From Gemmatimonadota bacterium (lineage in GTDB: Bacteria > Gemmatimonadota > Gemmatimonadetes > Gemmatimonadales > Gemmatimonadaceae), in assembly GCA_025358315.1 (NCBI GenBank), contig JANYKA010000056.1, positions 1 to 52,775 on the forward strand: a stretch of DNA of 52,775 bases. The letters are read 5' to 3'. The notes under the pieces were generated by a model. It did not search any database and was not told the DNA's origin. It saw only the letters and a program-made list of their open reading frames with translations. Position numbers and translations under genes: made by a program. Shown here piece by piece: positions 9,401-33,763 of this stretch. How positions within the stretch are numbered: the first letter of the stretch is position 1; every line of letters begins with the position of its first letter.

Positions 9401-12400
9401 CGCCAAGCGTTTGAAAGAGGTGCGCTTCGTCGGGGCTGATGCCGCAGTGATGCAATTGTACTTGTGCCTGAGTCCAGGCAAGGGTGGCGACCCGCTCAAA
9501 TGTCGTGACATCATCATACTTGTCAGCGAGGTCGAGCACTTCGCTGCGCGTCGATGCCACCACAGTGGAAAATGCCACGCGCACTGTTTTGCCGGGGCGC
9601 ACACGAATCCGACGACGCAACGCGACGATCGGGTCGAGTACCGAGCCGACCGTATTGGACAGCGCCACGCCATCGGCAATTGCCTGCGCCGTCCGCACTT
9701 GGCGGCCGCGCCCGATGAAATGGCTCCGGTCGGTCTCCCATTCCAGATCGCCGACTGTCTCGCCTTCCACCGCCAATACGTGGGCGAGCCAGACTTGCAT
9801 GTCTTCAGAGGATCGGGGGCGGCGCGTGGCGAGCAGCGTGCCGCGATCGGCGATGCATTCGGTATGTACGAACAGGTTGGAGAACGCCGGATGCGCCGCG
9901 TCGGAAGCCGGCGACGCGAGAACGATCTCGGCGTACGACGTGACTTCGATCTCGCGGGTCCGCGATCCGAAGTTTGTCACGGAGACACGACGAACCTCTG
10001 CATCGTCCTCCGACGATACGATCACCTCAAGGCGGGTCGCGAGCGCGCCGTCGCGGCGAGAGAACTCGGCGCGATCTTCTGAAAAAATCACATCGTAATT
10101 GTCCGGCTCTTGCCCGCTTGGCTGGTACCCGGCGGACCAACTCTCCCCGCTGGCGACGTCGCGAAGAAAGATATACGAGCCCGTATCATCACTTGTCGGA
10201 TCGTCATGCCAGCGCGTGATTGCCAAGTCGCGCCACCGACTGTACCCGGAGCCTGCGGCGGTCAGCATGACCGCGTAGTGCCCGTTCGAGAGCAACTGCG
10301 TGCGCGGCGTTGGACTATGCGGAGACGTGAAGCGACGGGTGTTCGGTGGCACCAGTTCACGGACGTCCGCCATGCTCGCAATGGAGTCCATCGCCGGTCT
10401 CGCGACCGCGACGTCGCGCGGGGTGCGCTCCTGGAGCAGAAGCTCACTGGCGCGAACCATAGGCTCCTCGTGAAAGCGGGCCCGCATCACGCCGCCATCG
10501 AGCGCGTTCGCGGCGGCGACGATCAGCATCCCCTGGTGGTGGGCCATGTACATGCGCACCACAGTATGCGTTTGCTCGGCGGGAAGCCGCGGTACTGTGT
10601 AGTCGAGGGACTCGTAAAAACCGTAGTCGCCATCCGCGCCAGCGTCGGTGAGCGCCCTGAAATTCCGCACCGCCAAGGCCGGCTCAATCATCGCCGCGAG
10701 TCCGGTTGCGTACGGCGTAATAACCATATCGTCCGCAAGGCCGCGTCTCAGGCCGAGGCCGGGCACGCCAAAATTGGAATACTGGTATGTCATCTCCAGA
10801 TCGCGCACGGAATACCCCGACTCCGAAACCCCCCAAGGGACACCGCGTTCATATCCATAATCGATCTGGCGACGCACCACGAGGCGGCACGTCTGTTCCA
10901 GCAGGCTGCCTACGGGCGAGCGCATCACCAACCCAGGCATCAGATATTCGAACATCGACCCTGACCACGACTGCAGAACGGAATCCCGGCCGACAGGCGT
11001 CAATGGGCGGCCGAGCCGGAACCAATGCTGCACGGGCACATCACCCTTGGCAATCGCGATGAAACTCATGAGACGAGCCTCAGACGCGAGGAGGTCGTAT
11101 CGGGCGGAGTCGAGACTGCCGTCGTCAACGCGATAACCGATAGCGAACAGCATTCGAGTCGGATCCAAAAGAAATCCGAACTGCATGGTGGCGACCATTT
11201 CCCGCGTGGTCGCGGCAATCCTGGCGAGGCGATCGAGCAATGCTGATGCCGCTGCCGCCGAGCGCTCGACATTGCTGACGAACGCATCGATCATGCGAAG
11301 CGAGGTCGGTGTTGCGGCGCCGCTGGATTCCATCGTCAATCGGAGTAACGCGAGGTCGCGAATCGCGTCACCGCAACGGCCGGGTAAATCCGCCAGCGAC
11401 GCACGGGCGGTCAGCGCGTCCGCGATGGGAAGCGTCGCCGGGTCAAGCCGCTGCCCAGCCCACGGCATGAGGGTATCGAGGTCACGGGCGTGCGTCTCCA
11501 CCGCGGACTGCAGCGCGTCCGCCCAAACGTGCACAGCCGATTCCGGCGGCTCGGCACGCACGGCGCCCAGATTCCGTGCGCAATTCTCGGCGACGCGGGA
11601 CGCGGATTCGAGTTCCGCCAGCCGGGCGGCCCATTGTGCCGGTGTGCGAGGACTCTGGGCGACCACCGTCATCACGACATCAAGTGCGTTGTCGAGGCGC
11701 TTCAATTCGGCGGCGCCCACCGTGCGTTCACGGTCTGACACATGCGCCGCCTGTTGCAGCAGCAACGCGGCATCTTCAATGCCGCCGAGCATCGCAAAGC
11801 CGATGACGCCTTGCGCGGCGATTTCCCGACATGCGCTGCCGAGCGTAATGAGTGCACCCGCAAGGTTGCCGCTGTCGACCGAAGATACGTACCGCGGATC
11901 AAGCGGGCGACCGTCCGTGGTGTCATACCAATTGTAGAGGTGGCCGCGATGGTGCTCGAGGCCCTGCATCGTTTGCAACGTTGCTTCAAGCCGATCGATC
12001 AGATCGAGTGTGCCGATCCAGCCAAAATCGCGGGCCGCAACAGCCGACAAGAGGTAGAGTCCGATGTTCGTCGGAGAAGTACGCTGCGCGACGACCGGGT
12101 TCGGTGTTTCCTGGAAGTTGTCGGGCGGCAGCGCATGGCTCCCAGGCGTGACGAATGCTGTGAAGTATCGCCAGGTTCGTCGGGCAATCAGGCGAAGCGT
12201 GCGCGCGTCATCCGGTGAAAATGGCACGATCGGCGCGGCGGTGCCTGGAAGACTCACGTGATGCGCGATGGCTGGCGCGGCCGCCCACAGCGCCAAAATC
12301 GGCAGCGCGATCGGCCAAGCGCTCGGATGCCACACTGCCACCGCGATCGCACCGGCCATTGTGAGTACGAGGCCACCAGCCATGCGCTGGTAGAGTCCGG

Positions 12401-15206: not shown

Positions 15207-16541
15207 TCAGCCTTCCGTGCTAAGGACGGACGACAGCCAGCCGCCGCTGAATCCGGCGACGCGCAATCCGTTCGATACATGCGGGCATCGGCGTATCAGT
15301 TTCCACACCAAGGCCGACTCATAATTCTCGATCATTGTGACGATCGGTCCCTCATTGAGGCCGAAGTGCCACCTTGACACCCAACCGTTTGGAGCGCCAC
15401 CCGGATCGGGAAAGGTCGGGTTGAATGTCGCTTTGAACCCGTATTTGTTGTCGCCCTGCCTTTGGTACCGGCCGAAATCTGCGAGTGTTGGCAGCACAAG
15501 TTCTGGCGCGAACGGCAGCGACGCAATGACGGCCCACGGCGCAATGGTGCCGTCGTCAGGGCCGAACGGAACGGCGCGTGCGCAATAGTCGAGGAACTCC
15601 CGCCGAATGCCGTCAATCAGACGGGTGGTTTCGCCGGGACCATCGCTGGCGGTGATTCCCCAGCATCGTTCGCTGTAATGGTTGTAGCCGTTGGGATTTC
15701 GGATCGCGTATTCCTGTTGAATACGCGTGGCGCGTCGGCTGTTCTCGAAGTAATCGATGCCCCGTTCCCGCATATACGCGTCCTGAATTCCCCGGAAGTC
15801 GATCCAAACGTGTGAGAGTTGGTGTGTGAAGAGCGGGCCGGCATAGAGGAAGTCAATGTTGTAGACCGTCTTCCATTCATAAGTGGACGTCCATGCGACG
15901 TAACTCGACGCCGGAATCGGATGCGTTGGCGAGCCGAGCGCGAGGACATAGAGCAACATCGCCTCGTCGTATCCTTCCCAACGAAACGGAAGGAATCCAC
16001 TCTCCGGCTTCCAGCCGTGCGTTACCGTTGCGCCACCATTCAGGGCCCAACGCCAGTCCGCACGCGCGTACAGTTGCTCGGCAAGTTCGCAGATCTCACG
16101 CTCATCGGACGTGTCCCGGTCAAAGTACGCCGCGCACGTCAACATCCCACCGAACAGCAGGGCAGAGTCGACGGTCGACAGCTCACACTCCCACGCGCGC
16201 GCGCCGGTCTGCATGTCCAGGAAGTGATAATAGAAGCCTTTGTATCCCGTCGTATCGTGCTCCGGGCCCTGCTTGCTTTTCCAGAAGAAGCGCAGGGTCG
16301 TGAGAATGCGCTCGATGGCCTCGGAGCGCGAAACAAATCCGCGCTCAACGCCAACGGGGTACGAAGTGAGTGCAAGCCCGGTGGCTGCGATGCTCGAGGG
16401 CCAGTCGGCGGCTGTTTTGTCGATCACCAATCCGTTGGCGCGGTTTGACTCGTGCAGGAAATAGTTAAACGCCCCGCGCTGAATGTCGCGCAACGTGCGC
16501 GATTCAGCATCGTGAGGGCGTTGATTGGTGTCCTGTTGCAC
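15207..16541 (-). CDS. Glucoamylase-family protein (PF10091 type)
   Basis: A 444-residue protein resembling the glycoamylase domain found inside cyclic glucan synthases and as stand-alone proteins. Visible landmarks are LRDIQRGAFNYFLHE at the start, TGYKGFYYHFLDMQTG near 120, the ECELSTVDSALLFGG segment, and a late NGWVSRWHFGLNEGPIVTMIENY, all typical of an alpha/alpha-barrel glycosidase. No signal peptide is visible from this GTG start, so a cytoplasmic location is implied unless the true start differs; no good ribosome site precedes it. It is the first gene of the glucan cluster and lies 3 nt before the synthase. Trimming or remodelling of beta-glucan is the natural guess. Divergent from it is a structured non-coding stretch. 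Confidence 0.88.
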   Translation of the reverse strand: MQQDTNQRPHDAESRTLRDIQRGAFNYFLHESNRANGLVIDKTAADWPSSIAATGLALTSYPVGVERGFVSRSEAIERILTTLRFFWKSKQGPEHDTTGYKGFYYHFLDMQTGARAWECELSTVDSALLFGGMLTCAAYFDRDTSDEREICELAEQLYARADWRWALNGGATVTHGWKPESGFLPFRWEGYDEAMLLYVLALGSPTHPIPASSYVAWTSTYEWKTVYNIDFLYAGPLFTHQLSHVWIDFRGIQDAYMRERGIDYFENSRRATRIQQEYAIRNPNGYNHYSERCWGITASDGPGETTRLIDGIRREFLDYCARAVPFGPDDGTIAPWAVIASLPFAPELVLPTLADFGRYQRQGDNKYGFKATFNPTFPDPGGAPNGWVSRWHFGLNEGPIVTMIENYESALVWKLIRRCPHVSNGLRVAGFSGGWLSSVLSTEG

Positions 16542-18327: not shown

Positions 18328-18474
18328 GGGAGCTACTCCGATATCTAGTGAGGTTGTCCTGCTGTCGGGTGATCTACGACACGTGCCTCGCAGTCGGATT
18401 CATTGAGGTTGCGCTAGCGTCCCGGCGGGGTGACGGCGATCTTGGCGCACCACCTTCCTGCTCGGGGTTTACCA

Positions 18475-20961
18475 ATGGCCATATCTGTGCAATTCAGGGC
18501 AACACTATTGCTCGCCGGCGTTTTCACTGTTCCGCTGGAAGCTCAGCAGCCGGTTGCGTCACCGCAGGCCGCCACGATTGCATCACGCACCGCGGGGCTC
18601 GATAAACGCGATGGATTCGTCACCACCTATATAAACGACCGCACTGGGGCGTTATTGCTGGAAATCCCACGTGACTCGATGCGCGCGCTTTTCTTGACTA
18701 CACTGGCCACCGGCTTGGGGTCAAATCCAATCGGGCTTGATCGCGGATCTGGTGGTGATGCCCAAGTCGTCCGCTTCCTAAAAGCGGGTGAGCGGGTTCA
18801 GATCGTCTTTGAAAACGTCGCTTTTCGTTCCAGTGGCAACCCGGATAACAAGCGTTCGGTGGACGAGTCCTTCCCGACCAGTACGGTCGCCGCCCTCCCG
18901 ATCCTCGCCGAAGAAAATGGGCACATACTGTTCGATGCCACCGAATTGGTAATGCGCGACTGGAACGACATTGGGGGCACACTCGCGCGCAACAATCAAG
19001 GCCAGTATTCGGTAGCGCGGGACCGATCGCGCATTAATAAGACCTATACCAAGTCGTTCCCTGAGAACACCGAGATCGATGTGGCGCTTACCTTCGTGCC
19101 CGGCGGCAACCCGGGCGGCGGGCTCGGTCATTTGGTGCCCGATACGCGCGCCCTCGATTTCCGGCAACACATCACGATTTTCAAGCTGCCGGACGACAAC
19201 TTCCGCCTGCGCCATACCGATCCCCGTGTCGGATACTTTGGCGTGTCGTTTAAAGATTATGCTGCGCCGATTCAGGGGCAGATCGAACAGGAGTGGGCGG
19301 CGCGTCACCGTCTTGAACGCGTGAATCCCAACGATCCGACCAGCCCAATCAAGAATCCGATTGTGTACTACGTCGATCGCGGCATTCCCGAGCCACTACG
19401 AACCGCCACACTGCAAGGCGTGAGCTTTTGGGTCGAGGCCTTTAATCGGGCCGGTTTGCCGGGTGGGTTCAAGGTGGACTTGTTGCCGGAAGGCGTCGAC
19501 CCGATGGATGCGCGATACAATGTCGTGCAATGGGAAAATCGAAACGAACGGGGCTGGAGCGTCGGTGGCGCGATCACCGATCCGCGTACCGGCGAAATGT
19601 TGAAAGGCATGGCACGAATGGACTCGCATCGCAATCGCACGGACTACAACATCTATGCGGCCTTTATGGGCGCCGCCGCCGGCCCGGGCGACACGGCGTT
19701 CGTGCTGGCCCGGATCCGACAGGTGAGTGCGCACGAAGTGGGGCACACATTGGGACTGGGGCATAACTACATTGCCAGCACATATGACCGGGGCTCGGTG
19801 ATGGATTATCCGGCGCCACGCATTCTCGTGAAGAACGGTGAAATCGATCTAAGTTCTGCATACGCGAGCGGGCCCGGGGCGTACGACGTGTGGGCGATCC
19901 ACTGGGGCTACGGGATATTCCCGGCCATGAGTGAGGACGACTCACTCACGGCCATCGTCGCTGACGGACTCCGAAAAGGATACCGCTATCTAAGTGACGG
20001 CGATGCACGGCCGGAAAACGCCGCGGACCCGCGCACCAACCTATGGGACGACGCGGCGACCGCTGGCGAATTTCTCACTCATCAAATGGACGCACGCCGC
20101 GTCGCGCTACAACGATTTGGTCTGCGCAACATTCGCGACGGCGAGCCGCTCTCCATTCTGCAAGACCGGTTTCCACTCCTCTATTTCTTTCATCGATTTG
20201 CGATTAATGGCGTGACCAAGACACTCGGCGGACTTGAATATTCCAACCCGGTAAAGGGCGATGGTCAACAGGCCACCAGTGTGATTAGTGCAACACGTCA
20301 GCGGGAAGCCATGAAGCAACTCTTGGGAGCGCTGGATCCCCGGGAGCTGGCGATTCCCGATTCATTGTTGACGCTCTTCTCACCGCGCCTCGATAACAGT
20401 GTGGAACTCCTTGGTAACCGGACCGCACCGGCATTCGATGAACTCGGGGCCGCGCGCACGCTCTCGCAGATGATTGTGGATGGGATTCTGCAACGGGAAC
20501 GCGCCGCTCGCATGGTGCAATTTTCGGCACGTATTCCTGGGGGTTATGCGTTCAATGATGCGATAAGCGATCTCGTGAAGGGGACATGGTACGCGGCAGT
20601 GCCGCCGTCGGGAAAACTTACCGCCATTCAGCGCACCACGCACCGTGCCGTGAGTGACCGATTGATTCTTCTCGCTTCCGATAGAGAAGCCTCTCCTGAG
20701 GTACGCGGCACAGCACTGCTTTGGGTGGACCGATTGCGCCTTGCGGCGGGTACCAAAGCAGCCGCCGCGACCAGTGACGAAGCAAAAGCGCACTGGCTCT
20801 CTATCGCCAACGATCTCAAACGATATCAGGAAAAGGGCGAAGTGCCGGTGCTCACCCCAGCGCTGCGGTCGCCGCCGGGCGATCCGTTCGGCGAGGAATC
20901 AGACAGTTGGCAACCCTTGCGGTTGCCAATGGGGCAAAGAGGCGTACCCAATTCTCCCTGA
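18475..20961 (+). CDS. Secreted zinc-dependent metalloprotease (DUF5117/DUF4953 type)
   Basis: An 828-residue exported protein. The signal peptide (MAISVQFRATLLLAGVFTVPLEAQQ) supports the ATG at 18475; a GTG at 18430 would add 15 residues before it. The zinc site HEVGHTLGLGHN has His420, Glu421, His424 and His430, the long HExxHxxGxxH pattern of metzincin-like enzymes, followed by a turn SVMDYP with Met that fits a Met-turn. Flanking regions match the DUF5117 N-terminal part (DGFVTTYINDRTGALLLEIP) and the DUF4953 family around the active site. It is probably a broad extracellular or periplasmic protease. A strong bidirectional terminator lies 17 nt after the stop. Confidence 0.93.
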   Translation: MAISVQFRATLLLAGVFTVPLEAQQPVASPQAATIASRTAGLDKRDGFVTTYINDRTGALLLEIPRDSMRALFLTTLATGLGSNPIGLDRGSGGDAQVVRFLKAGERVQIVFENVAFRSSGNPDNKRSVDESFPTSTVAALPILAEENGHILFDATELVMRDWNDIGGTLARNNQGQYSVARDRSRINKTYTKSFPENTEIDVALTFVPGGNPGGGLGHLVPDTRALDFRQHITIFKLPDDNFRLRHTDPRVGYFGVSFKDYAAPIQGQIEQEWAARHRLERVNPNDPTSPIKNPIVYYVDRGIPEPLRTATLQGVSFWVEAFNRAGLPGGFKVDLLPEGVDPMDARYNVVQWENRNERGWSVGGAITDPRTGEMLKGMARMDSHRNRTDYNIYAAFMGAAAGPGDTAFVLARIRQVSAHEVGHTLGLGHNYIASTYDRGSVMDYPAPRILVKNGEIDLSSAYASGPGAYDVWAIHWGYGIFPAMSEDDSLTAIVADGLRKGYRYLSDGDARPENAADPRTNLWDDAATAGEFLTHQMDARRVALQRFGLRNIRDGEPLSILQDRFPLLYFFHRFAINGVTKTLGGLEYSNPVKGDGQQATSVISATRQREAMKQLLGALDPRELAIPDSLLTLFSPRLDNSVELLGNRTAPAFDELGAARTLSQMIVDGILQRERAARMVQFSARIPGGYAFNDAISDLVKGTWYAAVPPSGKLTAIQRTTHRAVSDRLILLASDREASPEVRGTALLWVDRLRLAAGTKAAAATSDEAKAHWLSIANDLKRYQEKGEVPVLTPALRSPPGDPFGEESDSWQPLRLPMGQRGVPNSP

Positions 20962-20977
20962 CCAAGTATTAACAAAG

Positions 20978-21024
20978 AACTCCGGCTACCGCGCTCAGAA
21001 AAAACGCACGCGGTAGCCGGAGTT
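20978..21024. terminator. Bidirectional hairpin terminator
   Basis: A perfect 16-bp inverted repeat: AACTCCGGCTACCGCG at 20978-20993 pairs with 21009-21024, with a 15-nt loop. A short T-run follows at 21023-21026. It lies between the convergent metalloprotease and LVIVD genes and fits termination from both sides. Confidence 0.92.
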
Positions 21025-21033
21025 TTCAAACTG

Positions 21034-22908
21034 TTAGCGCGTCGCTTTCTCCAAATCTCTTACCGCTGCTGCCATAGCCCGAACGCGTGATGCGTCAGAT
21101 GCGGAGCCAGCATCCTTATCCAATTGCTCCGCCAGCTCATGCAGCGCGCTCTTACGTTTCCCGCCCGTCATGCTCTCCGCACGGGCTAGGTCACTCGCAA
21201 TCGTTCGGGTTCGCGCACTCGCCAATCCCTGGCCACGGACCAGCTGATCAAGGTATGAGCGCACCACCGGGAACGCCGCCGGCCACACAATCTTCGGCTG
21301 GTTCTGCGGATTGAACTGATCCCACGTCACGAGCTTCGCCGCGTCGATTTCGTTCTGTGACAAATACTCACTCGGCGTGAGCTCAAAAATATCCAGACCG
21401 CGGGCGATTTCGGATCCAATGATGTGGCCATTGTACCAGTAGCCGGCCCAGTATCCTGCAGTGACCAGTTTGGTCGAGTCCACCGGACCACGGTCAAAGT
21501 AGGCGATCTCGTATGGGTGCGACGCGTCAGTGAAATCGAATACGTCGAGGCCACCCTGATACCACCCTTGCACCATGATGTCACGGCCTGGCACTGGCAC
21601 CAGTGAACCATTGTGCGCTACGCAGTTCTCCGTGCTCGTTTGTGCGGCCGGCATCTTGAAATACGCGCCTTGTACCAGTCGGCCGTCTTTCAATGTGAAA
21701 ATCGCATCGGCACCCCAATCGATCGGATCGTTTGCCCGACACTTCGGCGCGGTGCCACCACCCCACTCGTCGGTGAACAGCACTTTCGTGCCGTCATTGT
21801 TGAAAGTCGCCGAGTGCCAAAAAGCGAAATTCGAATCGCCGGCGGCCTGGAGCCGCTTCGGATTCACGGGATCGTGAATGTCGAGCAACAGTCCGTAACC
21901 ACCGCAAGCGCCACCGGCCAGGCCGACGGCCGGATACACCGTGATGTCATGGCATTGGTTCGGACCACCCCGACCACCACCCGGCGGGGCACTGCGTGGC
22001 TTGTCGCTCGGCGCTTCGCCATGAGCGGTCGGTGCTGCAAGATCCTGGAAGATGTGCGCATAGTTCACAATCTTCGCCTGCTCCGGGTGGGCCAACGGAA
22101 CCCGGATCACCTCGATGCGAAAGCGCGACGTGTTTGCAGAGTCGATCGGCCCGTCCATGCAGCCCGGAAGTTCTTCCGCCGAGCGAACACCGGCGGAACC
22201 CGAGACGTAGACGTAAACAATGCTCTTGTCATTCATATCGGGCACTAACGTATGCGTGTGCGATCCGCGACACGTTTGCACGTCAGCCACTTTCCTGGGA
22301 TGCGCGATATCGGAAATATCAAAGATGCGCACGCCGACCATCCGGTCCTTGCTTACCCGGTCCGGCACGCCCTGCGTACCACAATCCACCCGGTCGCCCG
22401 TGCTTTCCGACGAGATGAACAGCAGGTTGCCATAGATCGACGGATCGCCCTGGCCCGTGCCGCAGACCAGCGTTTCACGGAGCACCGGGCTTGCCGGATT
22501 TGCGATATCCCAAATCTGGAATCCGCTGAAGTTGCCTTGAAAAACATAGTTGCCACGGAATGCCAAATCGGAATTGGCAAACGTTAGCCCGTGCGATCCG
22601 CCGTCGCCGTCGAGTTGGGTTGATTTCGAGCTGTGCGACACAAGTACCATATTGCGCGCCGCCACTCCTGCAGTCGTCATTCCGGCGCGAAGTCCGACGC
22701 GCGGGTCCGTCATCGACATTGCCCGTGGCATCGGCGGCAGCGTCACCACCGGCACGCTGGCGAGCGCGGCAGCGGTCGGCGATAGCGTGCTGCCAGATGA
22801 CGAAGAAGCCCCCGCACACGCGGCAGCCGAAAGGACAGCGATGCCGAGCGACAGCGTAGGCACAACACGCCCGGCGAAACGGTGACCAACAAACAGTGCA
22901 CTTCTCAT
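21034..22908 (-). CDS. LVIVD-repeat beta-propeller protein, copy B
   Basis: A 624-residue exported protein. The signal region (LSLGIAVLSAAACAGASSS) suggests a lipoprotein. The body is built of LVIVD-type blades such as SGFQIWDIANPASPV, GVRIFDISDIAHPRKV, GLLLDIHDPVNPKRL and GGLDVFDFTDASHPYEI, which form a propeller. Histidine-bearing segments RGSHTH, CHDITVYP, WHSATFNNDGTKVLF and CVAHNGSL recur in copy A at the same places and could line a metal or substrate site. The last roughly 70 residues are helical and charged. The biochemical function is unknown. Its ATG overlaps the stop of the DUF305 gene (ATGA). It is the last gene of a four-gene run that repeats the pair DUF305-LVIVD twice. Confidence 0.85.
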   Translation of the reverse strand: MRSALFVGHRFAGRVVPTLSLGIAVLSAAACAGASSSSGSTLSPTAAALASVPVVTLPPMPRAMSMTDPRVGLRAGMTTAGVAARNMVLVSHSSKSTQLDGDGGSHGLTFANSDLAFRGNYVFQGNFSGFQIWDIANPASPVLRETLVCGTGQGDPSIYGNLLFISSESTGDRVDCGTQGVPDRVSKDRMVGVRIFDISDIAHPRKVADVQTCRGSHTHTLVPDMNDKSIVYVYVSGSAGVRSAEELPGCMDGPIDSANTSRFRIEVIRVPLAHPEQAKIVNYAHIFQDLAAPTAHGEAPSDKPRSAPPGGGRGGPNQCHDITVYPAVGLAGGACGGYGLLLDIHDPVNPKRLQAAGDSNFAFWHSATFNNDGTKVLFTDEWGGGTAPKCRANDPIDWGADAIFTLKDGRLVQGAYFKMPAAQTSTENCVAHNGSLVPVPGRDIMVQGWYQGGLDVFDFTDASHPYEIAYFDRGPVDSTKLVTAGYWAGYWYNGHIIGSEIARGLDIFELTPSEYLSQNEIDAAKLVTWDQFNPQNQPKIVWPAAFPVVRSYLDQLVRGQGLASARTRTIASDLARAESMTGGKRKSALHELAEQLDKDAGSASDASRVRAMAAAVRDLEKATR

Positions 22909-23543
22909 TGCGGAGTTCTCCGTTGAAGCGGTGAAAGCATCCCTTCCATGCGCGCTATCTCAGCGCGCTGGTCGGCATCGACCCCGGTCGCATATCCGAA
23001 AATTTCCGGTGTCTGCCCGGCGCCTGGTGAATCAAAAAGTGTTGCCACCATCGTGAGGGCACCTTTATGATGCTGGATCATGAAAGTGAGGAATAACCGG
23101 TCGAAAGTCGTGTCGCGGGCTTGATCCAGTTGCTTCAACTGTTCGGGCGTCAACATTCCCGGCATGAGCATGGCATGGTCGCCCATGTCCATTCCGGCCA
23201 TCGCGTCGTGCCCCGTCGTCGCAAGCGGATCGGGGACGGCTTGGCCCTTGTCACGAAGCCAAGTCTGCATCAGCACAATTTCATCGCGCTGTGAGATATC
23301 GACTTTCCTGCAGAACAGCGCAACCTTTGCGCTCGCGCCGTGAGTCGGCGCCATCGCCGCCATGACGACCGCTTGCGCGTGATGTCCGATCATACCCTGC
23401 ATGAACTGCACATCGGCGCTGGTATAGGCCGGGCCGCTTTGCACTGTCGGGCTGCCAGACTGGGCGGAGACACTCTGTGCCGCGATGAACCCCCCGACGA
23501 GCCCAATCCAAACGGCAACGGTTCGATTCGATGTTGATATCAT
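22905..23543 (-). CDS. Secreted DUF305 protein, copy B
   Basis: A 212-residue exported protein with a signal peptide ending near SVSAQS. It has the DUF305 (ferritin-like four-helix) signatures: FMQGMIGHHAQAVVMA at the first helix pair and FLTFMIQHHKGALTMV at the second, each with a His-His pair and regular Met residues. Such His/Met patterns fit copper or other soft-metal binding, and DUF305 proteins are often found in copper-related loci. A Met/His-rich stretch (HDAMAGMDMGDHAMLMPGM) lies between them. The frame is open upstream to 23720, but the ATG at 23543 has a GGAGGG at ideal distance and starts the signal peptide. It overlaps the downstream LVIVD gene by 4 nt, implying coupled production. 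Confidence 0.9.
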   Translation of the reverse strand: MISTSNRTVAVWIGLVGGFIAAQSVSAQSGSPTVQSGPAYTSADVQFMQGMIGHHAQAVVMAAMAPTHGASAKVALFCRKVDISQRDEIVLMQTWLRDKGQAVPDPLATTGHDAMAGMDMGDHAMLMPGMLTPEQLKQLDQARDTTFDRLFLTFMIQHHKGALTMVATLFDSPGAGQTPEIFGYATGVDADQRAEIARMEGMLSPLQRRTPQ

Positions 23544-23688
23544 GGGCGACCCTCCAGGCATTGACGAGCGCGATAACCAAGATAAACAATAGGGGAAGGG
23601 CGTCGGGACCGAAAGCAACGCAGGAAATTCGATCCAGCTTGTGTGGTAGAACTCAGTCGCGCCGCGGCGTGATAACCCATTTAACGGG

Positions 23689-23735
23689 CGTCGGCGCCAG
23701 TGAGTGCGATGTCCGTGCACTCACTGGCGCCGACG
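23689..23735. repeat. 19-bp perfect inverted repeat between the two DUF305-LVIVD modules
   Basis: CGTCGGCGCCAGTGAGTGC at 23689-23707 pairs perfectly with 23717-23735 across a 9-nt loop. It begins 18 nt after the stop of LVIVD copy A on the minus strand. No clear T-run follows on the minus strand, so it may be a processing or attenuating hairpin rather than a standard terminator. The rest of the 210-bp gap (23544-23753) shows nothing else I can support. Confidence 0.85.
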
Positions 23736-23753
23736 TGTGCTATTCCAAAAACA

Positions 23754-25751
23754 TTACTTGCCTGTCGCTGCGGCTAACTCCCGAACCGCACCGGCAAGCA
23801 TCCGTACCCTCGCGGCATCCGGGCCGAGCGCCTCGCCATCCAACTGCGCGGCAATCTTGTGCAACGCTGTATGCCGCGTTTCACCCTTGGCGCCTTCTGC
23901 CGAGCTCAGCGCTGACCGCACCGAGGCAATTCTGCCGCTCGCGAGTCCGCCCGACCGCTCGAGTTGATCAACAAATGAGCGCGCCACTGCGAAGCTCGGT
24001 GGCCATACCAACTTCGACTGGCCTTGGGCATTCAAATAATCAAAATGCACGGTTTTCGCGGCATCAATCTCGTTCTGCGAGATGAATGCGCTTGGCGTCA
24101 ACTCCACGATGTCCAGACCGCGAGCGATTTCGGAGCTCACCATCACGCCATTATACCAGTACACCGACCACGAGCCACCCATCGCCATGTGGGTCGAGTC
24201 GACGGGGCCGCGATCGAAGAATGCAATTTCCTTCGCATGCTGGGCGTCGGTCCAATCGAACACGGAGATACCACCCTGATACCACGCCTGCACCATCACA
24301 TCGCGGCCGGGGATCGGAATGAGCGAGCCGTTATGCGCAACGCAGTTTTCTTCTGCAGTTTGGGGCGCCGGCATTTTGTAATAGCCCTGAAATTCCATTT
24401 TGCCATTGACGATCGTAAAGAGCGCGTCGGCACCCCATTCCTTCTTGTCCGTGATGCGGCACTTCGGCTGGCCACCACCACCCCATTCATCGGAGAACAA
24501 CACTTTGGTGCCGTCGTTGTTGAACGTCGCTGAGTGCCAGTACGAAAAGTTCGAGTCGGCCACGGCGTCAATACGAATCGGATGTGCCGGGTCGCGAATG
24601 TCGAGCAACAGGCCGTACCCTTCGCAGGCGCCGCCGGCCATGCCAATGCCCGGATAGACCGTGATGTCGTGGCACTGCGTCGGGCCGGGGCGCGGACCGC
24701 TCTCTGGACTTGATGCATCACCGACCATCTTTGCGATCATCGCCGGCAGTGCCGCACGAAGCGCAGCGCTATCAGCACCGGTCGGTGCACCGGTCCCATT
24801 GCGTGCCTTCACGGTGCTGTCGAGCATCGGCTTGATCATGCCGTTGGGCAATACGATCTCTTGTCCTCTGATCGTTGCCGTAAATCCGCCGGCTGCCCGT
24901 GCAGCAGTGGCGGCCTTGGCGGCGTTGGCGATATCAAGCGGTGATTCGCCGTGACTGGCCGGTGCGATCAGGTCATTGAAGATGCGGGGTGAGCTGACGA
25001 TCGCCGCCTTTTCGGGATGGGCCAGCGGCACCTTGATGACTTCAATACGAAAGAGCGCCGAGTTGGGATCCTTGCTCGGAGCCTCTTTGACGCAGCCGGC
25101 GAGTTCGTCTGCCGGACGCACGCCTGCAGATCCGGAGATGTAGACGTAGACATTCTCCTTGTCTTTCGGGTCAACGAGAACGGTATGCGTGTGCGAGCCG
25201 CGGCACGTTTGAACCGCGCCGACACTCTTCGGGTTCGCAATGTCCGTGATATCGAAAATGCGCAGGCCGCGGAGGCGGTCTTTACTCACCGGATCCTTAA
25301 CACCCTGTGCACCGCAATCGAGACGGGCCGACGTGCCCTCGCCGGAGACGAAAAGAAGATTTTTGTAAACAGAAACGTCGCTCTGCGACGCCGGGCAGTA
25401 ATACGCTGTCTTCAGGGCGGGATGATTCGGATTGGCAATATCCCAAATTTGATAGCCGTTGTAGCTGCCCTGAATCGCGTAGTGACTGCTGAACGAGAGA
25501 TCGGAATTCGTGATGCCGGCAAATTTTTCCGACGGTGGCGTTTTGGAAAGAACGCGCATGTTCCACGACGCTTCAGCGGCATCCATCAGGCCCGCGCGCA
25601 GTCCAACGCGGGGATCGACTGCGGCCGATTGGCCCCTGAGCGGCGACGCACCGCTCGCAAACAGAGTTCCAACGGCGAGCGATGCCAGAAAAAATCGCGC
25701 GGCTCGTGTGGCTACTGAACGGCTCGCCTGAACTGAAACAGATGTCATCAC
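23754..25751 (-). CDS. LVIVD-repeat beta-propeller protein, copy A
   Basis: A 665-residue paralogue of copy B with the same order of segments: RGSHTH, CHDITVYP, the CEGYGLLLDIRDPAHP blade, WHSATFNNDGTKVLFSDEWGGG, CVAHNGSLIPIPGRDVMVQ and a C-terminal helical tail. A signal peptide (ARFFLASLAVGTLFASGASPL) precedes the propeller. Compared with copy B it carries an extra stretch of roughly 60 residues before the CHD motif, including an Ala-rich piece (NAAKAATAARAAGG). GAGGAACC precedes the ATG at a good distance. It lies 60 bp after DUF305 copy A, so the two are likely one transcript. The function is unknown; the conserved His positions suggest a bound metal or ligand, which is inference. Confidence 0.85.
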   Translation of the reverse strand: MMTSVSVQASRSVATRAARFFLASLAVGTLFASGASPLRGQSAAVDPRVGLRAGLMDAAEASWNMRVLSKTPPSEKFAGITNSDLSFSSHYAIQGSYNGYQIWDIANPNHPALKTAYYCPASQSDVSVYKNLLFVSGEGTSARLDCGAQGVKDPVSKDRLRGLRIFDITDIANPKSVGAVQTCRGSHTHTVLVDPKDKENVYVYISGSAGVRPADELAGCVKEAPSKDPNSALFRIEVIKVPLAHPEKAAIVSSPRIFNDLIAPASHGESPLDIANAAKAATAARAAGGFTATIRGQEIVLPNGMIKPMLDSTVKARNGTGAPTGADSAALRAALPAMIAKMVGDASSPESGPRPGPTQCHDITVYPGIGMAGGACEGYGLLLDIRDPAHPIRIDAVADSNFSYWHSATFNNDGTKVLFSDEWGGGGQPKCRITDKKEWGADALFTIVNGKMEFQGYYKMPAPQTAEENCVAHNGSLIPIPGRDVMVQAWYQGGISVFDWTDAQHAKEIAFFDRGPVDSTHMAMGGSWSVYWYNGVMVSSEIARGLDIVELTPSAFISQNEIDAAKTVHFDYLNAQGQSKLVWPPSFAVARSFVDQLERSGGLASGRIASVRSALSSAEGAKGETRHTALHKIAAQLDGEALGPDAARVRMLAGAVRELAAATGK

Positions 25752-25811
25752 TGGTTCCTCAAAAAGGGGATTGAAGGTGGGAAAACAACGGATTATTCAA
25801 CTGCAGTGTGC

Positions 25812-26498
25812 TTACGGCTCGCGCTCGGTGAGCAAGACGGCGCTCAGCATTTTCTCCATTCGGGCGATCTCGGTCGTTTGATCCACATTGACGTCCGAAG
25901 CAAACTTAAAGACCGTTTCGTCCTGACCGGCGCCATACGTCTCAAATAGTTGCTTGACCATCGAGACGGCACCGCGGTGATGCTGCATCATATAAGTGAG
26001 AAACAGGCGGTTGAACTCGGCTCCCCTGGCCTGATCCAATTCTTTCATTTGCGCTTCGCTGAGCATCCCGGGCATCAGCATCACATGCTGCACGCCGTCC
26101 ATCACCATCAGCATCCCGGCCGTGTGACCATCTGGCACCGGCTGATGGCGATCACGCAACCACGTTTGCATGGTGACGATTTCATCTTGCTGGGCATTAA
26201 TGATCCGTGCCGCCAGCCGGCCAATAGACGCATTGGCGCCGTGACTTGGCGCCCAGCCAGCCATGACGATTGCCTGAGCGTGGTGACCAATCATGCCACT
26301 CATGAACTCGATATCAGCGGCAGTGTACGGATAGCGAAGACTGTCGGCTTTAGCTCGCGCCACTCCCGCAGAGTTCGGGAGCACGGCCGTTGGTTCCGGA
26401 GACGGTCGCATGCCTTGGGCAGCGACAACGTTGCTGGTCGCCAGGAACGCGGCGGACGCAATCGCGACAGCCGTGAATCGAATGAAGCGTGAGGTCAT
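25812..26498 (-). CDS. Secreted DUF305 protein, copy A
   Basis: A 228-residue exported protein with a signal peptide (MTSRFIRFTAVAIASAAFLATSNVVAAQ). It shows both DUF305 motifs: FMSGMIGHHAQAIVMA and FLTYMMQHHRGAVSMV. The middle His/Met stretch of copy B is reduced here (GMLMVMDGVQHVMLMPGM). The length and C-terminal ARMEKMLS match copy B, so these are paralogues. An AGGAG lies about 10 nt before the ATG. It is the first gene of the four-gene minus-strand run. The divergent gap of 168 bp to the PEP-mutase-like gene would hold its promoter. Confidence 0.9.
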   Translation of the reverse strand: MTSRFIRFTAVAIASAAFLATSNVVAAQGMRPSPEPTAVLPNSAGVARAKADSLRYPYTAADIEFMSGMIGHHAQAIVMAGWAPSHGANASIGRLAARIINAQQDEIVTMQTWLRDRHQPVPDGHTAGMLMVMDGVQHVMLMPGMLSEAQMKELDQARGAEFNRLFLTYMMQHHRGAVSMVKQLFETYGAGQDETVFKFASDVNVDQTTEIARMEKMLSAVLLTEREP

Positions 26499-27488: not shown

Positions 27489-27554
27489 TTAGCTCTTTGC
27501 CTGCAGACTGTAAAAGCGGTATTGTCTCCGCCTTACCCGTTCCAACCGAGACTG

Positions 27555-30500
27555 ATGATGCGAACTGCACCAGCCATTCGCGCGGCCATCGCCGCGCTCC
27601 TTGTTCTCGTCCACACCGTCGGTGCCCAGCAAGCACCGGTGATCCAAACGGCTTACGGTGCCACGAGTGCGGCGCCCGTATCGAAGTGGACACCGCCAGC
27701 ATCGGCGGGGCGCCAACTCACCATTACCGATCTTCTGTCGTGGAAGGGGGTGCGCACGCCGCAGCTCTCGAATGACGGAAAATGGTTCGCATACATTCTC
27801 GCGCCCGCTGAGGGCGATGCGGAAGTTGTGATCCGTCCGACGGCAGATGGTGGCAAGGAATGGCGATTCCCGGTCGGTGATGCGACGGCAGCAAACGTTG
27901 CGGGTGGAGGGCGTGCAGGTGGAGCGGGCGGTGCGGGCGGTGCGGGCGCTGCGCCGGCGCTCGCGATGTCGGCGAATGGGCGCTGGGTCGCATTTATGGA
28001 ATACGCGAGTTCCGTCATCACCGGTCGCGGAGCGGGCGGTCGCGGCGGACGCAGTGGTGGCGCAAGCAACGCCGGCGCTGCCGCACCGGCTGCCGCGGCG
28101 GCGAAACTTGCCATCGTCGATGTCACCAATGGTTCCAAGCGCGAGTTTGAAAGCGTGCGGTTGTTCCGCTTTGCCGGTGAGAAATCGAATTGGATCGCCA
28201 TCCAACACAGTGGTCCTGCTGTTGCGGCAGGCGCCGCCGCCACTGGCGCTGGCCGCGCCGGTGGCGCCGCTGGCGCCGCGCCGGTACCGACGGGTACGAC
28301 GCTCGATCTCGTGGACATGTCTTCCGGAACGTCGGAGCCAATTGGCAACGTCACGGAATTCGCCTTCGACGATTCCGGTGACTGGATCGCCTACGCCACC
28401 AGCGTCGCGGATTTATTTGGAAACGCCGTACAACTCCGCCAACTCTCCAGCGGTGTGGTCCGCACACTCGAGTCGAAAAAGGCGTCGTATCGCCGACTCG
28501 TGTGGGGCGACAGCAGTGATGCACTGGCAGCGTTGCGGGTCGTGTCTGATACGGCAGGCGGCGATGAAGAGGCGACCGTGCTTGCGTGGCGTCACGCCGC
28601 CGTCGCTGGTGCGAAGGCCGTCGAATTAACTTCGGCGTCTGTCGCAATTGCCGGAGGACTGGTTATCAGTTCGGACCGCGCGCCGGAATGGGGCGACGCG
28701 CAGAAAACTGTTTACTTTGGACTTCGTGAGCCGCGCCCACCACACCCGATGGTGAGCGGCGCCGGCTTCACGGCACCAAATCCCGGTGGCGTTGCGCCTG
28801 GTGCAGGTGCGGGCGGACAAGTGGCCGCGGCACCGCAGACCGACGCGGACGTGCCATCACTCATCCTGTGGCATTGGAAGGACCCGCGCTTGCAAAGTCA
28901 GCAACAGGTGCAGGAAGGGCAGGATCGGGCGTTCAGTTATCTCGCGTCCTATGTATTCGCGACATCGCACGCCGCACGGCTCGCCGATGAAAAAGTGCGC
29001 GAGGTCGCCATCGGACCCAAGAGTAACTGGGGTGTAGGCACCGACATCACGGCGTACGAGCGCGAAGAAGGAATTAAGGGAAGCGCGTTCCGCGACCTGT
29101 ACGCTGTCAACCTCGCCACAGGTGACCGCAAGCCAATCCAATTGAAGGTGCCGGGGAGCGGTGGCGGCAATGGCGGCCGCGGCGGCTTCGGCGCTTCGCC
29201 ATTCTCGCCAGACAATTCGCAATACGTGTACTACGACACCGGCGATTGGAAAAGCTACGAATTCGCTTCCGGAAAAACGCGCACTATTTCCGCCGGCGTG
29301 CCGGCGAAGTTCTGGAACACCGAAGACGATCACAATCAGGTGAAGCCGCCTATTGGAGGCGCACTGATCGGTTGGTCGAAGGACAGCAAAAATGTCCTGA
29401 TCCGCGACAACTGGGACGCGTGGCGCCTGCCGGTGAATGGCGGAACGGCCGTGAACATTACCGGGAATGGACTGAAAGATCAGATCCATTACCAAGCGCG
29501 ACTTTTGTTTGACCCGAAGGAACGGGACATCGACCTCGAAAAGCCGATGTACTTCAAGACGTACGGCGAGTGGACCAAGAGAGAAGGGCTCTCGCAAGTC
29601 GATCCGGTGCAGGGCGGAACGAAAGTGATTTCGTGGGAAGATGCGAAGGTGGACTATCGCCGCGCCCGTGACGCCGACGTATGGGTATATGCCCGTCAGA
29701 CGGTCGTCAAATATCCCGATTGGTACGCCGCCGATGCCGGTCTCAAAAGCGAACGCCGGCTCACTGACGCAAACCCGCAGCAGAAGGACGTCGCCTGGAC
29801 TCCGGGTGCTCGGCTCATCGAATACACCTGTGAGAACGGAGGCGGCAGGCACCAGGCCGTGCTGTATCTCCCCGCCGGATATGAGCAGGGGAAGACGTAT
29901 CCGATGCTGACCTATATCTATGAAAAACTGTCGCAGGAATACAATGTCTACACGGAACCCAATGCGACGCGCTATTCGAATCCCAGCGTTTTTACCTCGC
30001 GCGGCTACGCGTTCCTCAAGCCGGACATCGTGTACCATCTGAATGATCCGGGCCGTTCGGCAACATGGTGCATCGTTCCCGCCGTGACAGCGGCGATCGC
30101 CACCGGGATCGTGGATGCATCGCGCGTTGGACTGCAGGGACACAGCTGGGGTGGATACCAAACGGCGTTCGTCACGACGCAAACCAAGATCTTCAAGACC
30201 GCCGTCGCCGGGGCACCGCTGACCGACATGGTCTCGATGGCGGGATCAGTGTACTGGAACACCGGTACCTCCGACAACTCGATTTTCATTGCGAGCCAGG
30301 GACGGTTTACCGGCGGACCGAATGATGTTCCCGAGGCGTACGCCCGGAATTCGCCGCAACAGTTTGCCCAGAACTTGTCGTTGCCACTGATGATCCTGCA
30401 CGACGACCGCGACGGCGCGGTGGATTTCAATCAGGGGATCACCTACTACAACCACCTGCGCAATCTTGGCAAGGACGTGGTACTCCTCGAGTACGTGGGT

Positions 30501-30704
30501 GAAAATCACGGACTCGCCCGGCCGGCGAATCAAAAGGACTATGCGCTGCGGATGACAGAGTGGTTCGACACATTCTTGCGCGATCAGCCGGCGCCGGACT
30601 GGCTCAAGGACGGCGTGCCGCGTCTCAAAATGGAACAGCATCTGAAGGATCGGAAACCGTTGGTCGATCCGAAAGCGACACCCGCACCGAAAGTTGTGCC
30701 TTGA
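27555..30704 (+). CDS. Secreted S9-family (prolyl oligopeptidase) serine peptidase
   Basis: About 1049 residues from the ATG at 27555, which begins a signal peptide (MMRTAPAIRAAIAALLVLVHTVGAQQ). A TTG 33 nt upstream is less likely. An N-terminal beta-propeller leads to an alpha/beta-hydrolase domain with the full triad: Ser864 in GLQGHSWGGYQ, Asp953 in HDDRDGAVDF and His985 in GENHGL. Family members cleave oligopeptides, usually as dipeptidyl or oligopeptidases, in the periplasm. Unusual are at least four low-complexity Gly/Ala/Arg loops inside the propeller, near residues 115-136, 157-185, 220-246 and 409-428. The M14 peptidase gene follows 59 bp later on the same strand. Confidence 0.94.
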   Translation: MMRTAPAIRAAIAALLVLVHTVGAQQAPVIQTAYGATSAAPVSKWTPPASAGRQLTITDLLSWKGVRTPQLSNDGKWFAYILAPAEGDAEVVIRPTADGGKEWRFPVGDATAANVAGGGRAGGAGGAGGAGAAPALAMSANGRWVAFMEYASSVITGRGAGGRGGRSGGASNAGAAAPAAAAAKLAIVDVTNGSKREFESVRLFRFAGEKSNWIAIQHSGPAVAAGAAATGAGRAGGAAGAAPVPTGTTLDLVDMSSGTSEPIGNVTEFAFDDSGDWIAYATSVADLFGNAVQLRQLSSGVVRTLESKKASYRRLVWGDSSDALAALRVVSDTAGGDEEATVLAWRHAAVAGAKAVELTSASVAIAGGLVISSDRAPEWGDAQKTVYFGLREPRPPHPMVSGAGFTAPNPGGVAPGAGAGGQVAAAPQTDADVPSLILWHWKDPRLQSQQQVQEGQDRAFSYLASYVFATSHAARLADEKVREVAIGPKSNWGVGTDITAYEREEGIKGSAFRDLYAVNLATGDRKPIQLKVPGSGGGNGGRGGFGASPFSPDNSQYVYYDTGDWKSYEFASGKTRTISAGVPAKFWNTEDDHNQVKPPIGGALIGWSKDSKNVLIRDNWDAWRLPVNGGTAVNITGNGLKDQIHYQARLLFDPKERDIDLEKPMYFKTYGEWTKREGLSQVDPVQGGTKVISWEDAKVDYRRARDADVWVYARQTVVKYPDWYAADAGLKSERRLTDANPQQKDVAWTPGARLIEYTCENGGGRHQAVLYLPAGYEQGKTYPMLTYIYEKLSQEYNVYTEPNATRYSNPSVFTSRGYAFLKPDIVYHLNDPGRSATWCIVPAVTAAIATGIVDASRVGLQGHSWGGYQTAFVTTQTKIFKTAVAGAPLTDMVSMAGSVYWNTGTSDNSIFIASQGRFTGGPNDVPEAYARNSPQQFAQNLSLPLMILHDDRDGAVDFNQGITYYNHLRNLGKDVVLLEYVGENHGLARPANQKDYALRMTEWFDTFLRDQPAPDWLKDGVPRLKMEQHLKDRKPLVDPKATPAPKVVP

Positions 30705-30763: not shown

Positions 30764-33763
30764 ATGTCGCTTCGCGTAACTGCCCATCGGTTTTTTCGTT
30801 ATTGCACTCTTGTGATCGGGCTCTTGATGGGCGCGGTGCCGGTGTGTTCGGCACAGCAATTCACCACGGACACCCGCGATCCAAAGCAACGTCAGGATGA
30901 CGGCTTCGCGGCCGACTACAAGCAGTGGTTGATCAATCCGCGAACGGGCAGCCCGCTTGTCGATCACCTGCCGCTCGTCAGCGGCATTCCGACGCCCAAA
31001 GACGTCATTGGTTACAACGTTGGCGCTCCGAAAAAGCTCACCTACTATGCCGACCAGCTGAAATATTATCGCGCCCTCGCCGCTGCTACGGGTCGCGTGA
31101 AGATCGAGACCATCGGCCGCTCCGACGAAGGACGCGAACTCGTCGTTGTGTGGGTATCGTCCGACGAGAACATGAAAAATCTCGCGCAGAACCGCACCAA
31201 TCTTGGCAAGATCGCTGACCCGCGCGGCATGAGCGAAGACCAGGTGCACGAGCTCATTGCACGCACCAAGCCGCATTATCATTTAATGGGCGGCTTGCAT
31301 AGCGGCGAAACCGGCCCGTCCGAAATGCTGATGGAGTTGGTCTACCGCATCGCGACCGAAACGTCACCAATCATCACACAGATTCGAAACAATGTGTATG
31401 TGTCTGTAACGCCGGTCGCCGACGCCGATGGACGCGATCGCAATGTCGATTGGTTTTACAAGGGACTGGAGTTTGCGGCGGCGAATCCGCCGGCGCCCGC
31501 CGTCACGACAGCGGTGGCGGTGCCAGGTGCTGTGCCGGTGGTGCCGGCGGTAGCACCAGTCGGGCCGGTCGTGACGCCCGCCGCAGGGATTGGTGGATTG
31601 CCGTACTGGGGCAAGTACGTGTATCACGATAATAATCGTGATATCAATATCGAATTACAGCAAATGCGCGCGATCGTCGATTGGTACTTCACGGCGCATC
31701 CGCCGATCATGCACGATCTGCATGAGTCGCTCTCGCTGCTCTACACCTACAGCGGCGGAATGCCGCAGAATCCAAATCTCGATCCATTGCTCTTTGCTGA
31801 ACTTCCCTGGTTTGCCAACTGGGAAATGTCGCAAATGACCAAGTGGGGAATGCCCGGCGTCTATACCAATGCATTCATGGACGGTTGGTCCCCCGGCTAC
31901 CTCGGCTCGGTGTCGTACAATCACAACGGCATTATGAAGATGTACGAGACGCAATCGGGACGGGACACGACCGTGGGTACGACTCCGCCGTCAGCGACGG
32001 CCGTTGTCGCTGCAGCTCCGGGCGGTGCCCCCGCACGCGGTGCGGCGCCTGGTATTCCGGTGGTTGCTCCAGTGGTTGCTCCAGCGGTTGCTCCAGCGGC
32101 AGGCGGCGGTCGTGGCGGCCCGGCGCCGATCCCCACCGGACGGGGCGGCGCTCAGGACCGCGAATGGTATCGTGGTATTCAGTTCACGCAGGAAGACATC
32201 AGCACCTTCACCCGCCGCTCCAATACCAATTACATGGAGACCGGAGTGCTGTCGTCACTGCAGCTGACCGCAATGTTTCCGGCGACGGTTCTCGAGAATT
32301 TTTACATCAAGACGCGGAACTCCATCGAAGAAGGGAAGCACAAAGCGCCGTTCGGGTTTGTGATCCCGTTACAGCGCGATATGACGAAGGTCGCCGAGTT
32401 CATAAATATTTTGCGTGTGCAGCGCATTGAGGTCGGGCAGGCCGCATCGTCCTTCAAAGTCGGTACGACGACGTATCCCGCCGGTTCATACGTGATCATG
32501 CGCGACCAGCCCTACGGCCGGCTTGCCAAGAATCTGATCGAGAAGCAACAGTATCCTGACGCACGCATCACTACTTACGACGATAGCGGCTGGTCCATGG
32601 GCTTCGCGATGAATGTGGACGTCGCCGAAGTCGCCGACTCGGCGATCTTGCACGTCGCGACAACGCCGGTGACCGCGGTGAGGCTCAAGGGGAAAACGAC
32701 TGGCTCGGCGGCCGCGGGGCTTGCTATTGCACACCTTGGATCGAACAACATGATCAGCTTCCGGTACCGGCTCAAGAATGTGCCGATGCAGATCGCCGAG
32801 AAATCGTTCAAGGTTGACAGTGTGGAATTTCCGGCGGGCTCGTTCGTGATCACGGATATGAAGAATGCTGCGGCGGTTCGCGCGGCCGTGGACGAACTTG
32901 GGCTCACCGCCGCAACCATCAAAGCGGCACCCGCGGTGCCGTTGCATAACGCCGATGTCCCCCGCGTGGCAATCTATTCAGCGTGGAGCAACACCCAGAA
33001 CCTCGGCTGGTACCGGTTGACGTTCGAGAAGTTTGGTGTGCCATACGATCTCATTTTTAAGGAACAGGTCAAGCAGGGAAACCTGCGTGCGAAATACGAT
33101 GTGATTCTGATGGCCGAGCAGAACCTTGGGCGTCAGCAGTCGCTGGCCGTGCCGGCCGCGAAGCCGCAATCGTATCAGAAGAGCGACACGTACAAGTTTC
33201 TCGGTATGTACGGCGAGACGGCCGATATGTCCGGCGGCCTGGGCCAGGACGGCGTCGATGCGATTGGCGCATTCCTCGATGGCGGCGGCACGCTCATCGC
33301 CGTCGGCGATGCGGCGCGACTGCCCATTGAATTTGGTTTTGCCCATACGGTGGATAAAGTGACGGTCCCCGGGCTGACGTCGCAGCGGCCGTTGGTGCAG
33401 GGGGAAATTGTGCGGCCCGAGCATCCGGTGTTTTATGGATATGCCGACAAGCGCCTGCCGATCAAATACGTGGGTGGAAGCCCTCTCAAGGTTGGCTCGG
33501 CCGATGAAAGCAATGTGCTGGCCCGCTATGTCGGAGGCGATGCGTCCGTGATCTCCGGCCTGATGGTTGGTGCCGATTCATTGAAGGGACGACCGTTCGC
33601 CGTTGACGTGCCGGCCGCATACAAGGGGCACGGACGGGTGATACTGTTTTCGAACAATCCGATTTATCGCTGGCAGAATCACGGCGAGTTTAACATGATC
33701 TTTAACTCGGTCCTCAACTGGAATGACGAGCCGGTCGCGGTGCCGTCGAAGATCGTGCCGTAG
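30764..33763 (+). CDS. Secreted M14-family zinc carboxypeptidase-like protein
   Basis: A 999-residue protein with a signal peptide (FFRYCTLVIGLLMGAVPVCSAQQ). The M14 zinc site is visible as GLHSGE with His179 and Glu182, and a second His in IMHDLHES (His317 or His320). The region between them carries YHDNNRDIN. At about 1000 residues it is much longer than a plain M14 domain; the C-terminal third (YSAWSNTQNLGWYRLTFEKFG onward) resembles a glutamine-amidotransferase-like fold. Two long Pro/Val/Ala or Gly-rich inserts lie at about 240-278 and 416-462, the first between the zinc ligands. It probably degrades peptides together with the S9 peptidase upstream. A GC-rich hairpin follows the stop. 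Confidence 0.9.
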   Translation: MSLRVTAHRFFRYCTLVIGLLMGAVPVCSAQQFTTDTRDPKQRQDDGFAADYKQWLINPRTGSPLVDHLPLVSGIPTPKDVIGYNVGAPKKLTYYADQLKYYRALAAATGRVKIETIGRSDEGRELVVVWVSSDENMKNLAQNRTNLGKIADPRGMSEDQVHELIARTKPHYHLMGGLHSGETGPSEMLMELVYRIATETSPIITQIRNNVYVSVTPVADADGRDRNVDWFYKGLEFAAANPPAPAVTTAVAVPGAVPVVPAVAPVGPVVTPAAGIGGLPYWGKYVYHDNNRDINIELQQMRAIVDWYFTAHPPIMHDLHESLSLLYTYSGGMPQNPNLDPLLFAELPWFANWEMSQMTKWGMPGVYTNAFMDGWSPGYLGSVSYNHNGIMKMYETQSGRDTTVGTTPPSATAVVAAAPGGAPARGAAPGIPVVAPVVAPAVAPAAGGGRGGPAPIPTGRGGAQDREWYRGIQFTQEDISTFTRRSNTNYMETGVLSSLQLTAMFPATVLENFYIKTRNSIEEGKHKAPFGFVIPLQRDMTKVAEFINILRVQRIEVGQAASSFKVGTTTYPAGSYVIMRDQPYGRLAKNLIEKQQYPDARITTYDDSGWSMGFAMNVDVAEVADSAILHVATTPVTAVRLKGKTTGSAAAGLAIAHLGSNNMISFRYRLKNVPMQIAEKSFKVDSVEFPAGSFVITDMKNAAAVRAAVDELGLTAATIKAAPAVPLHNADVPRVAIYSAWSNTQNLGWYRLTFEKFGVPYDLIFKEQVKQGNLRAKYDVILMAEQNLGRQQSLAVPAAKPQSYQKSDTYKFLGMYGETADMSGGLGQDGVDAIGAFLDGGGTLIAVGDAARLPIEFGFAHTVDKVTVPGLTSQRPLVQGEIVRPEHPVFYGYADKRLPIKYVGGSPLKVGSADESNVLARYVGGDASVISGLMVGADSLKGRPFAVDVPAAYKGHGRVILFSNNPIYRWQNHGEFNMIFNSVLNWNDEPVAVPSKIVP
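32060..32095 (+). repeat. Three tandem 12-bp units inside the M14 gene
   Basis: GTGGTTGCTCCA occurs twice, followed by GCGGTTGCTCCA, head to tail. They encode VVAP-VVAP-AVAP within a Pro/Val/Ala-rich insert. The repeat is in frame and could vary in number by slippage without breaking the gene. Confidence 0.9.

Follow-up and report, generated by a model that had tools for sequence, protein, structure and literature searches.

Why would a bacterium carry, twice in a row, a gene for an exported DUF305 protein directly ahead of a gene for an exported LVIVD-repeat beta-propeller? The two modules lie at positions 21034-26498 of a 52,775-nt stretch, here called the window, of contig JANYKA010000056.1 from a Gemmatimonadota bacterium (GCA_025358315.1). 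As the original prediction held, the four genes run in the order DUF305 then LVIVD, twice, on one strand, and all four are on the minus strand. DUF305-A (25812..26498) encodes a 228-residue exported protein that resembles CopM-family metallochaperones, with a signal peptide recognized by eye. LVIVD-A (23754..25751; start at GTG 25751 or ATG 25748) encodes an exported beta-propeller of 664-665 residues with four invariant His residues. DUF305-B (22905..23543) contains PF03713; its open reading frame start at 23720 is over-extended, and ATG 23543 is likelier. LVIVD-B (21034..22908) encodes a 624-residue propeller paralogue with a possible lipoprotein signal, LSAAAC, at its N-terminus (by eye). 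The spacing was also as first described: the genes of module A are 60 bp apart, counted to GTG 25751, and the LVIVD-B start overlaps the DUF305-B stop in the ATGA of CAATGA.

A perfect inverted repeat is located 3′ of each pair, 19 bp at 23689..23735 behind LVIVD-A (folding z-score -7.9; no clear T run) and 16 bp at 20978..21024 behind LVIVD-B (z-score -6.6). These hairpins likely end transcription units A and B, so the modules would form two separate two-gene transcription units. The surrounding genes encode peptidases (18430-20961, 27522-30704, and 30764-33763, all on the plus strand) of the DUF4953 Met-zincin metallopeptidase, S9, and M14 types. A multicopper-oxidase domain protein is encoded at 3781-4797 (plus strand), approximately 16 kb from the modules and too distant to belong to either unit. 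The window also encodes, at 6462-15203 (minus strand), a 2913-residue glycoside hydrolase 94/glycoamylase protein that resembles cyclic beta-glucan synthase, and its gene adjoins a separate glycoamylase-domain gene (15207-16541, minus strand) and a phosphoglucomutase gene (4825-6465).

LVIVD-A and LVIVD-B are 58% identical and share the same His and Cys residues, and the two DUF305 proteins are 52% identical. In trees built from 69 pairs, modules A and B occupy separate deep clades of the LVIVD proteins, and they are equally far apart among the DUF305 proteins; the modules are thus old paralogues. The earlier description of the locus as a tandem duplication holds in the sense of old paralogous modules side by side, and these trees rule out a recent duplication. 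Distance matrices of the two families are correlated (r = 0.80; none of 2000 permutations was as high), a value to which shared species history contributes.

The check proposed with the original prediction was to ask how often the two genes adjoin and co-occur in other genomes. At least 571 relatives turned up among 84,980 species genomes, and the best 80 of them were examined; these are top-ranked matches, and related genomes among them are not independent. DUF305 lies within 1 kb of LVIVD in 65 of 75 related LVIVD genes that have at least 1 kb of upstream sequence, against a chance expectation of approximately 0.002 per gene. In 60 of these 65 cases DUF305 is upstream on the same strand, and five have another arrangement. 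The paired loci include Gemmatimonadota and metagenome-assembled genomes labelled Rhodothermales and Bacteroidota, while at several LVIVD loci (L020, L026, L048, L052, L056, L058, L061) no DUF305 is present nearby. Among 64 same-strand pairs, the LVIVD frame relative to DUF305 is biased (42, 16, and 6 across the three frames), and 21 of them would allow a start codon that overlaps the stop of DUF305; together these suggest translational coupling. Extra LVIVD copies that have no DUF305 of their own are found beside pairs at L045 (8180-10081), L053 (3083-4984), L067 (8031-9998), and L073 (8203-10164); at L067, the first LVIVD copy is interrupted by a stop.

Of 121 Gemmatimonadota genomes, 101 contain LVIVD and 100 have a DUF305 that scores above its cut-off, with both missing from 20. 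Presence and absence of the two agree in 120 of 121 genomes, the sole disagreement being G115, and the double absences are scattered over several families of the phylum. The corresponding Fisher value (p ~6e-22) is not a true probability because the genomes share ancestry. Four genomes of other lineages (G121, G126, G127, G129) each contain a single DUF305 gene, which is the LVIVD neighbour by coordinates. That the two exported proteins form a fixed pair is strongly supported, well beyond close relatives.

The pairing is specific. True choice-of-anchor-B propellers from the same phylum have DUF305 at 0 of 25 loci, which rules out that all LVIVD proteins pair with DUF305. Similarly, LVIVD is beside only 2 of 30 top-scoring actinomycete DUF305 loci and absent from 28, which rules out that all DUF305 proteins pair with LVIVD; because these loci were taken as the best-scoring matches, the proportion is a biased estimate. 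Apart from the two genes, every cluster delimited with a simple gene caller is confined to at most 7 of 97 loci. The 130 immediate neighbours contain no Pfam family in more than three instances and no recurrent copper, efflux, or regulator genes. Wider synteny is ruled out as the source of the adjacency, since no third neighbour recurs. By these controls, the unit consists of exactly two genes, and LVIVD of this family accompanies DUF305 rather than the reverse.

Outside the operon arrangement, the pair persists in rearranged form. In Actinomycetota it is mostly divergent or convergent (L080, L081, L084, L087), and 26 of 30 further actinomycete loci (L090-L119, which take in a more distant tier of ~500-residue LVIVD proteins) show adjacency in these orientations within 1.5-kb flanks. 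Nonomuraea has the two genes 30 bp apart in the same rearranged orientation as other Actinomycetota. The actinomycete genome G348 has two LVIVD genes approximately 5 kb apart with DUF305 matches near both (L128, 1033-8634).

A second LVIVD family, from Paraburkholderia, Tsukamurella, and relatives, was reached through a fragment of the phosphotriesterase Sb-PTE and has DUF305 downstream of LVIVD. The distance is 68 bp in Paraburkholderia megapolitana, and in Tsukamurella the genes share an ATGA overlap; an adjacent DUF305 is found at 15 of 30 actinomycete loci of this family. First-family DUF305 partners group in a separate lineage (3 label changes versus 27 in shuffles), apart from the P. megapolitana and Tsukamurella partners, which cluster with solo DUF305 genes. 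Based on this quick tree with moderate support, DUF305 was likely recruited to LVIVD propellers at least twice. No DUF305-LVIVD gene fusion is trusted. The sole candidate, L213 (772-2649, minus strand), joins a second-family LVIVD and DUF305 in one open reading frame with a frame break in its propeller part, and a frameshift is more probable than a fusion.

What the two proteins might do is suggested first by DUF305. Both copies match PF03713 far above its gathering cut-off of 27 bits (DUF305-A 134.8 bits, E = 3.4e-39; DUF305-B 130.3 bits, E = 8.2e-38). Against the NCBIfam CopM metallochaperone model NF049983, with a cut-off of 90 bits, DUF305-A scores 92.2 and DUF305-B 74.2 bits, and DUF305-A matches the CopM structure 5fej at E = 2.6e-10. 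The His-His pairs reported for both copies, H72 H73 and H173 H174 in the numbering used here, are invariant in 55 related sequences. CopM of Synechocystis binds copper, is periplasmic and extracellular, is induced by copper, and is involved in copper resistance (PMC4335983). DUF305-A resembles CopM in score, in its conserved His-His motifs, and in its match to CopM structures; the two differ in genomic partner, as the CopM gene accompanies those of the sensor CopRS (PMC4335983), whereas here the partner is a propeller.

The LVIVD proteins score weakly against the Pfam repeat PF08309 (cut-off 20.2 bits; LVIVD-B 24.1, LVIVD-A 16.1), so their assignment as repeat propellers is based on predicted fold and on homology to choice-of-anchor B. 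The AlphaFold2 model of LVIVD-A (pLDDT 88.4, pTM 0.86) has, by strand count, seven blades, a helical arm inserted at approximately residues 270-345, and a C-terminal helical domain at 586-663. On this model, H186/H188, H360, H405, and H472 are assigned to the point where the innermost strand starts in blades 3, 4, 5, and 6, respectively. The segments SHTH, CHD, WHS, and AHNGS, singled out in the original prediction, are conserved across 62 relatives, in which H186, H360, H405, H472, D420, E421, and eight Cys residues are invariant. Invariance of the His residues, D420, and E421 reaches down to approximately 44-50% identity, and these residues together with Y490, Q491, and R513 are also invariant in 30 additional actinomycete proteins; one of the invariant Cys positions is lost in the second-tier actinomycete proteins. 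DUF305-A and LVIVD-A were also folded as one read-through chain, with stop codons read as residues and the alignment checked. The resulting pTM of 0.71 lies between that of separate bodies and a firm complex, and neither shows nor excludes contact.

The CopM likeness admits a reading in which the pair serves copper tolerance: both proteins would bind copper and store it outside the cytoplasm, with the propeller as a non-catalytic scaffold or sponge, in keeping with the copper induction and resistance role of CopM in Synechocystis (PMC4335983). This is improbable, as invariant single His residues accompanied by invariant Asp, Glu, Tyr, Gln, and Arg fit an active site better than storage, and efflux or regulator genes are not recurrent nearby.

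Homology places the propeller more precisely. The LVIVD family is linked to choice-of-anchor B (TIGR04312) by profile comparison at 99.0% over 308 columns, covering the whole propeller. In this alignment H188, H405, E421, and H472 correspond to choice-of-anchor-B H139, H251, E267, and H306, which are invariant or near-invariant there. The window proteins score 61.8 and 38.4 bits against the TIGR04312 cut-off of 100. By these profiles they are a sister family of choice-of-anchor B rather than members: homology is full-length and His/Glu residues align, but scores lie below the cut-off and choice-of-anchor-B loci have no DUF305 neighbour (0 of 25). The same alignment bears on whether the two genes are linked for a reason other than metal, such as surface adhesion or envelope structure, with the conserved His residues being structural. 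The repeat was originally reported from cell-surface proteins (PMC2447325), and most LVIVD members have no assigned function. Yet such a role is very improbable here, as the conserved His residues are single positions at the strand-a entries of successive blades and match the choice-of-anchor-B invariants.

The preferred explanation, with a probability of roughly 0.5, is that the pair consists of an exported metallo-propeller enzyme and its dedicated metallochaperone, by analogy to methanethiol oxidase and SCO1. The DUF305 protein, as a CopM-family member, would bind a soft metal outside the cytoplasm, likeliest Cu(I)/Cu(II), through its His-His and Met residues. In the seven-bladed LVIVD propeller, the His residues of blades 3 to 6 and the Asp/Glu of blade 5 would face the central channel and coordinate a metal centre, which DUF305 would load or keep correct. 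The propeller itself would be the metal-dependent enzyme, with a substrate that is exogenous or located in the envelope. Export signals were recognized by eye, and we infer metal binding by these residues, copper as the metal, delivery by DUF305, and catalysis. The metal role that had been suggested for both proteins is supported by the invariant His residues, by the placement of DUF305 in the CopM family, and by the shared ancestry of the propeller and a binuclear metal phosphotriesterase.

Methanethiol oxidase (mtoX) is a copper beta-propeller with conserved His ligands, and it is encoded beside the chaperone SCO1/SenC (PMC5739008). SELENBP1 belongs to the same comparison of copper propellers (PMC10362175). 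The likeness to methanethiol oxidase and the SBP56 family is one of working principle, namely an exported copper beta-propeller with His ligands and an adjacent copper chaperone gene. The window proteins lie outside that family, and its chaperone comes from another family. Membership in SBP56 (PF05694) is rejected, as no window protein has a Pfam match to it; the distant relative L107 scores 16.8 bits against a cut-off of 34.

The nearest enzyme by homology is Sb-PTE, the haloalkylphosphorus hydrolase of Sphingobium sp. TCM1 (PDB 5HRM, 5IOJ). A Foldseek search with the LVIVD-A model returned Sb-PTE 5hrm as the best solved match (E = 3e-14; next match 6e-8), although the superposition is loose (TM 0.41/0.54). 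A PDB sequence search with LVIVD-A gave no match. Choice-of-anchor B is linked to Sb-PTE by profile at 98.6%, and Sb-PTE is its only PDB match (E = 4e-8). Judged by these profile links, the LVIVD protein shares ancestry with choice-of-anchor B and, via that family, with Sb-PTE. Both are seven-bladed LVIVD-type propellers, and the H...DE motif WHSATFNNDGTKVLFSDEWGGG of the LVIVD protein resembles LHSVVPASINGVPHLVGAAELGAC of Sb-PTE in one blade by eye, a putative match of metal ligands that is also reached via choice-of-anchor B; the two differ in that identity is approximately 21% in a multiple alignment and the Sb-PTE locus has no DUF305 neighbour. The Sb-PTE gene (L120, 776-2791) is on a Sphingobium plasmid between a TonB-dependent receptor gene and IS6100, and its frame includes an N-terminal SnoaL-like stretch, which points to either a fusion or another start site.

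The metal centre of Sb-PTE is binuclear, according to its structure paper. The metal in Sb-PTE is manganese. The copper reading derives from the DUF305 partner, while homology to Sb-PTE would point to a hydrolase of the binuclear Mn type. Under that alternative the propeller would be a Mn/Zn-type metal hydrolase acting on a phosphotriester, lactone, or similar substrate, and DUF305, rather than supplying that metal, would mop up competing copper or help folding. Sb-PTE is both the best structural match and the only PDB sequence relative sharing LVIVD repeats, and the two motifs look alike, but its gene has no adjacent DUF305, and the direct profile comparison with the LVIVD family is weak (89%) and covers the repeats rather than the site. 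A hydrolase of this type is rather unlikely. Still, the nearest enzyme being a hydrolase and no copper enzyme counts against the copper reading, as does the lack of a recurrent copper gene beside the pair.

DUF305 and LVIVD are annotated in very many genomes as domains or repeats with no assigned function. A literature search, which covered few subscription papers, returned no paper naming both DUF305 and LVIVD and none for LVIVD with Gemmatimonadetes. The conserved and specific pairing gives each family a partner and, with it, a testable function: DUF305 as a metal helper and LVIVD as a metalloenzyme. Tentatively, at somewhat less than even odds, the pairs may represent an undescribed class of exported beta-propeller enzymes, with copper or a dinuclear centre, that is widespread, is served by its own CopM-type chaperone, and is present in most Gemmatimonadota and many Actinomycetota. 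As DUF305 would have been recruited at least twice, the transfer of metal from one fold to the other would be a principle of general reach. If the metallo-propeller and metallochaperone reading is true, it would account for a near-universal, uncharacterised gene pair of the class Gemmatimonadetes and carry the propeller-plus-copper-chaperone idea of methanethiol oxidase over to a new combination of folds. It would also hint at the natural functions of the superfamily that gave rise to a flame-retardant-degrading phosphotriesterase.
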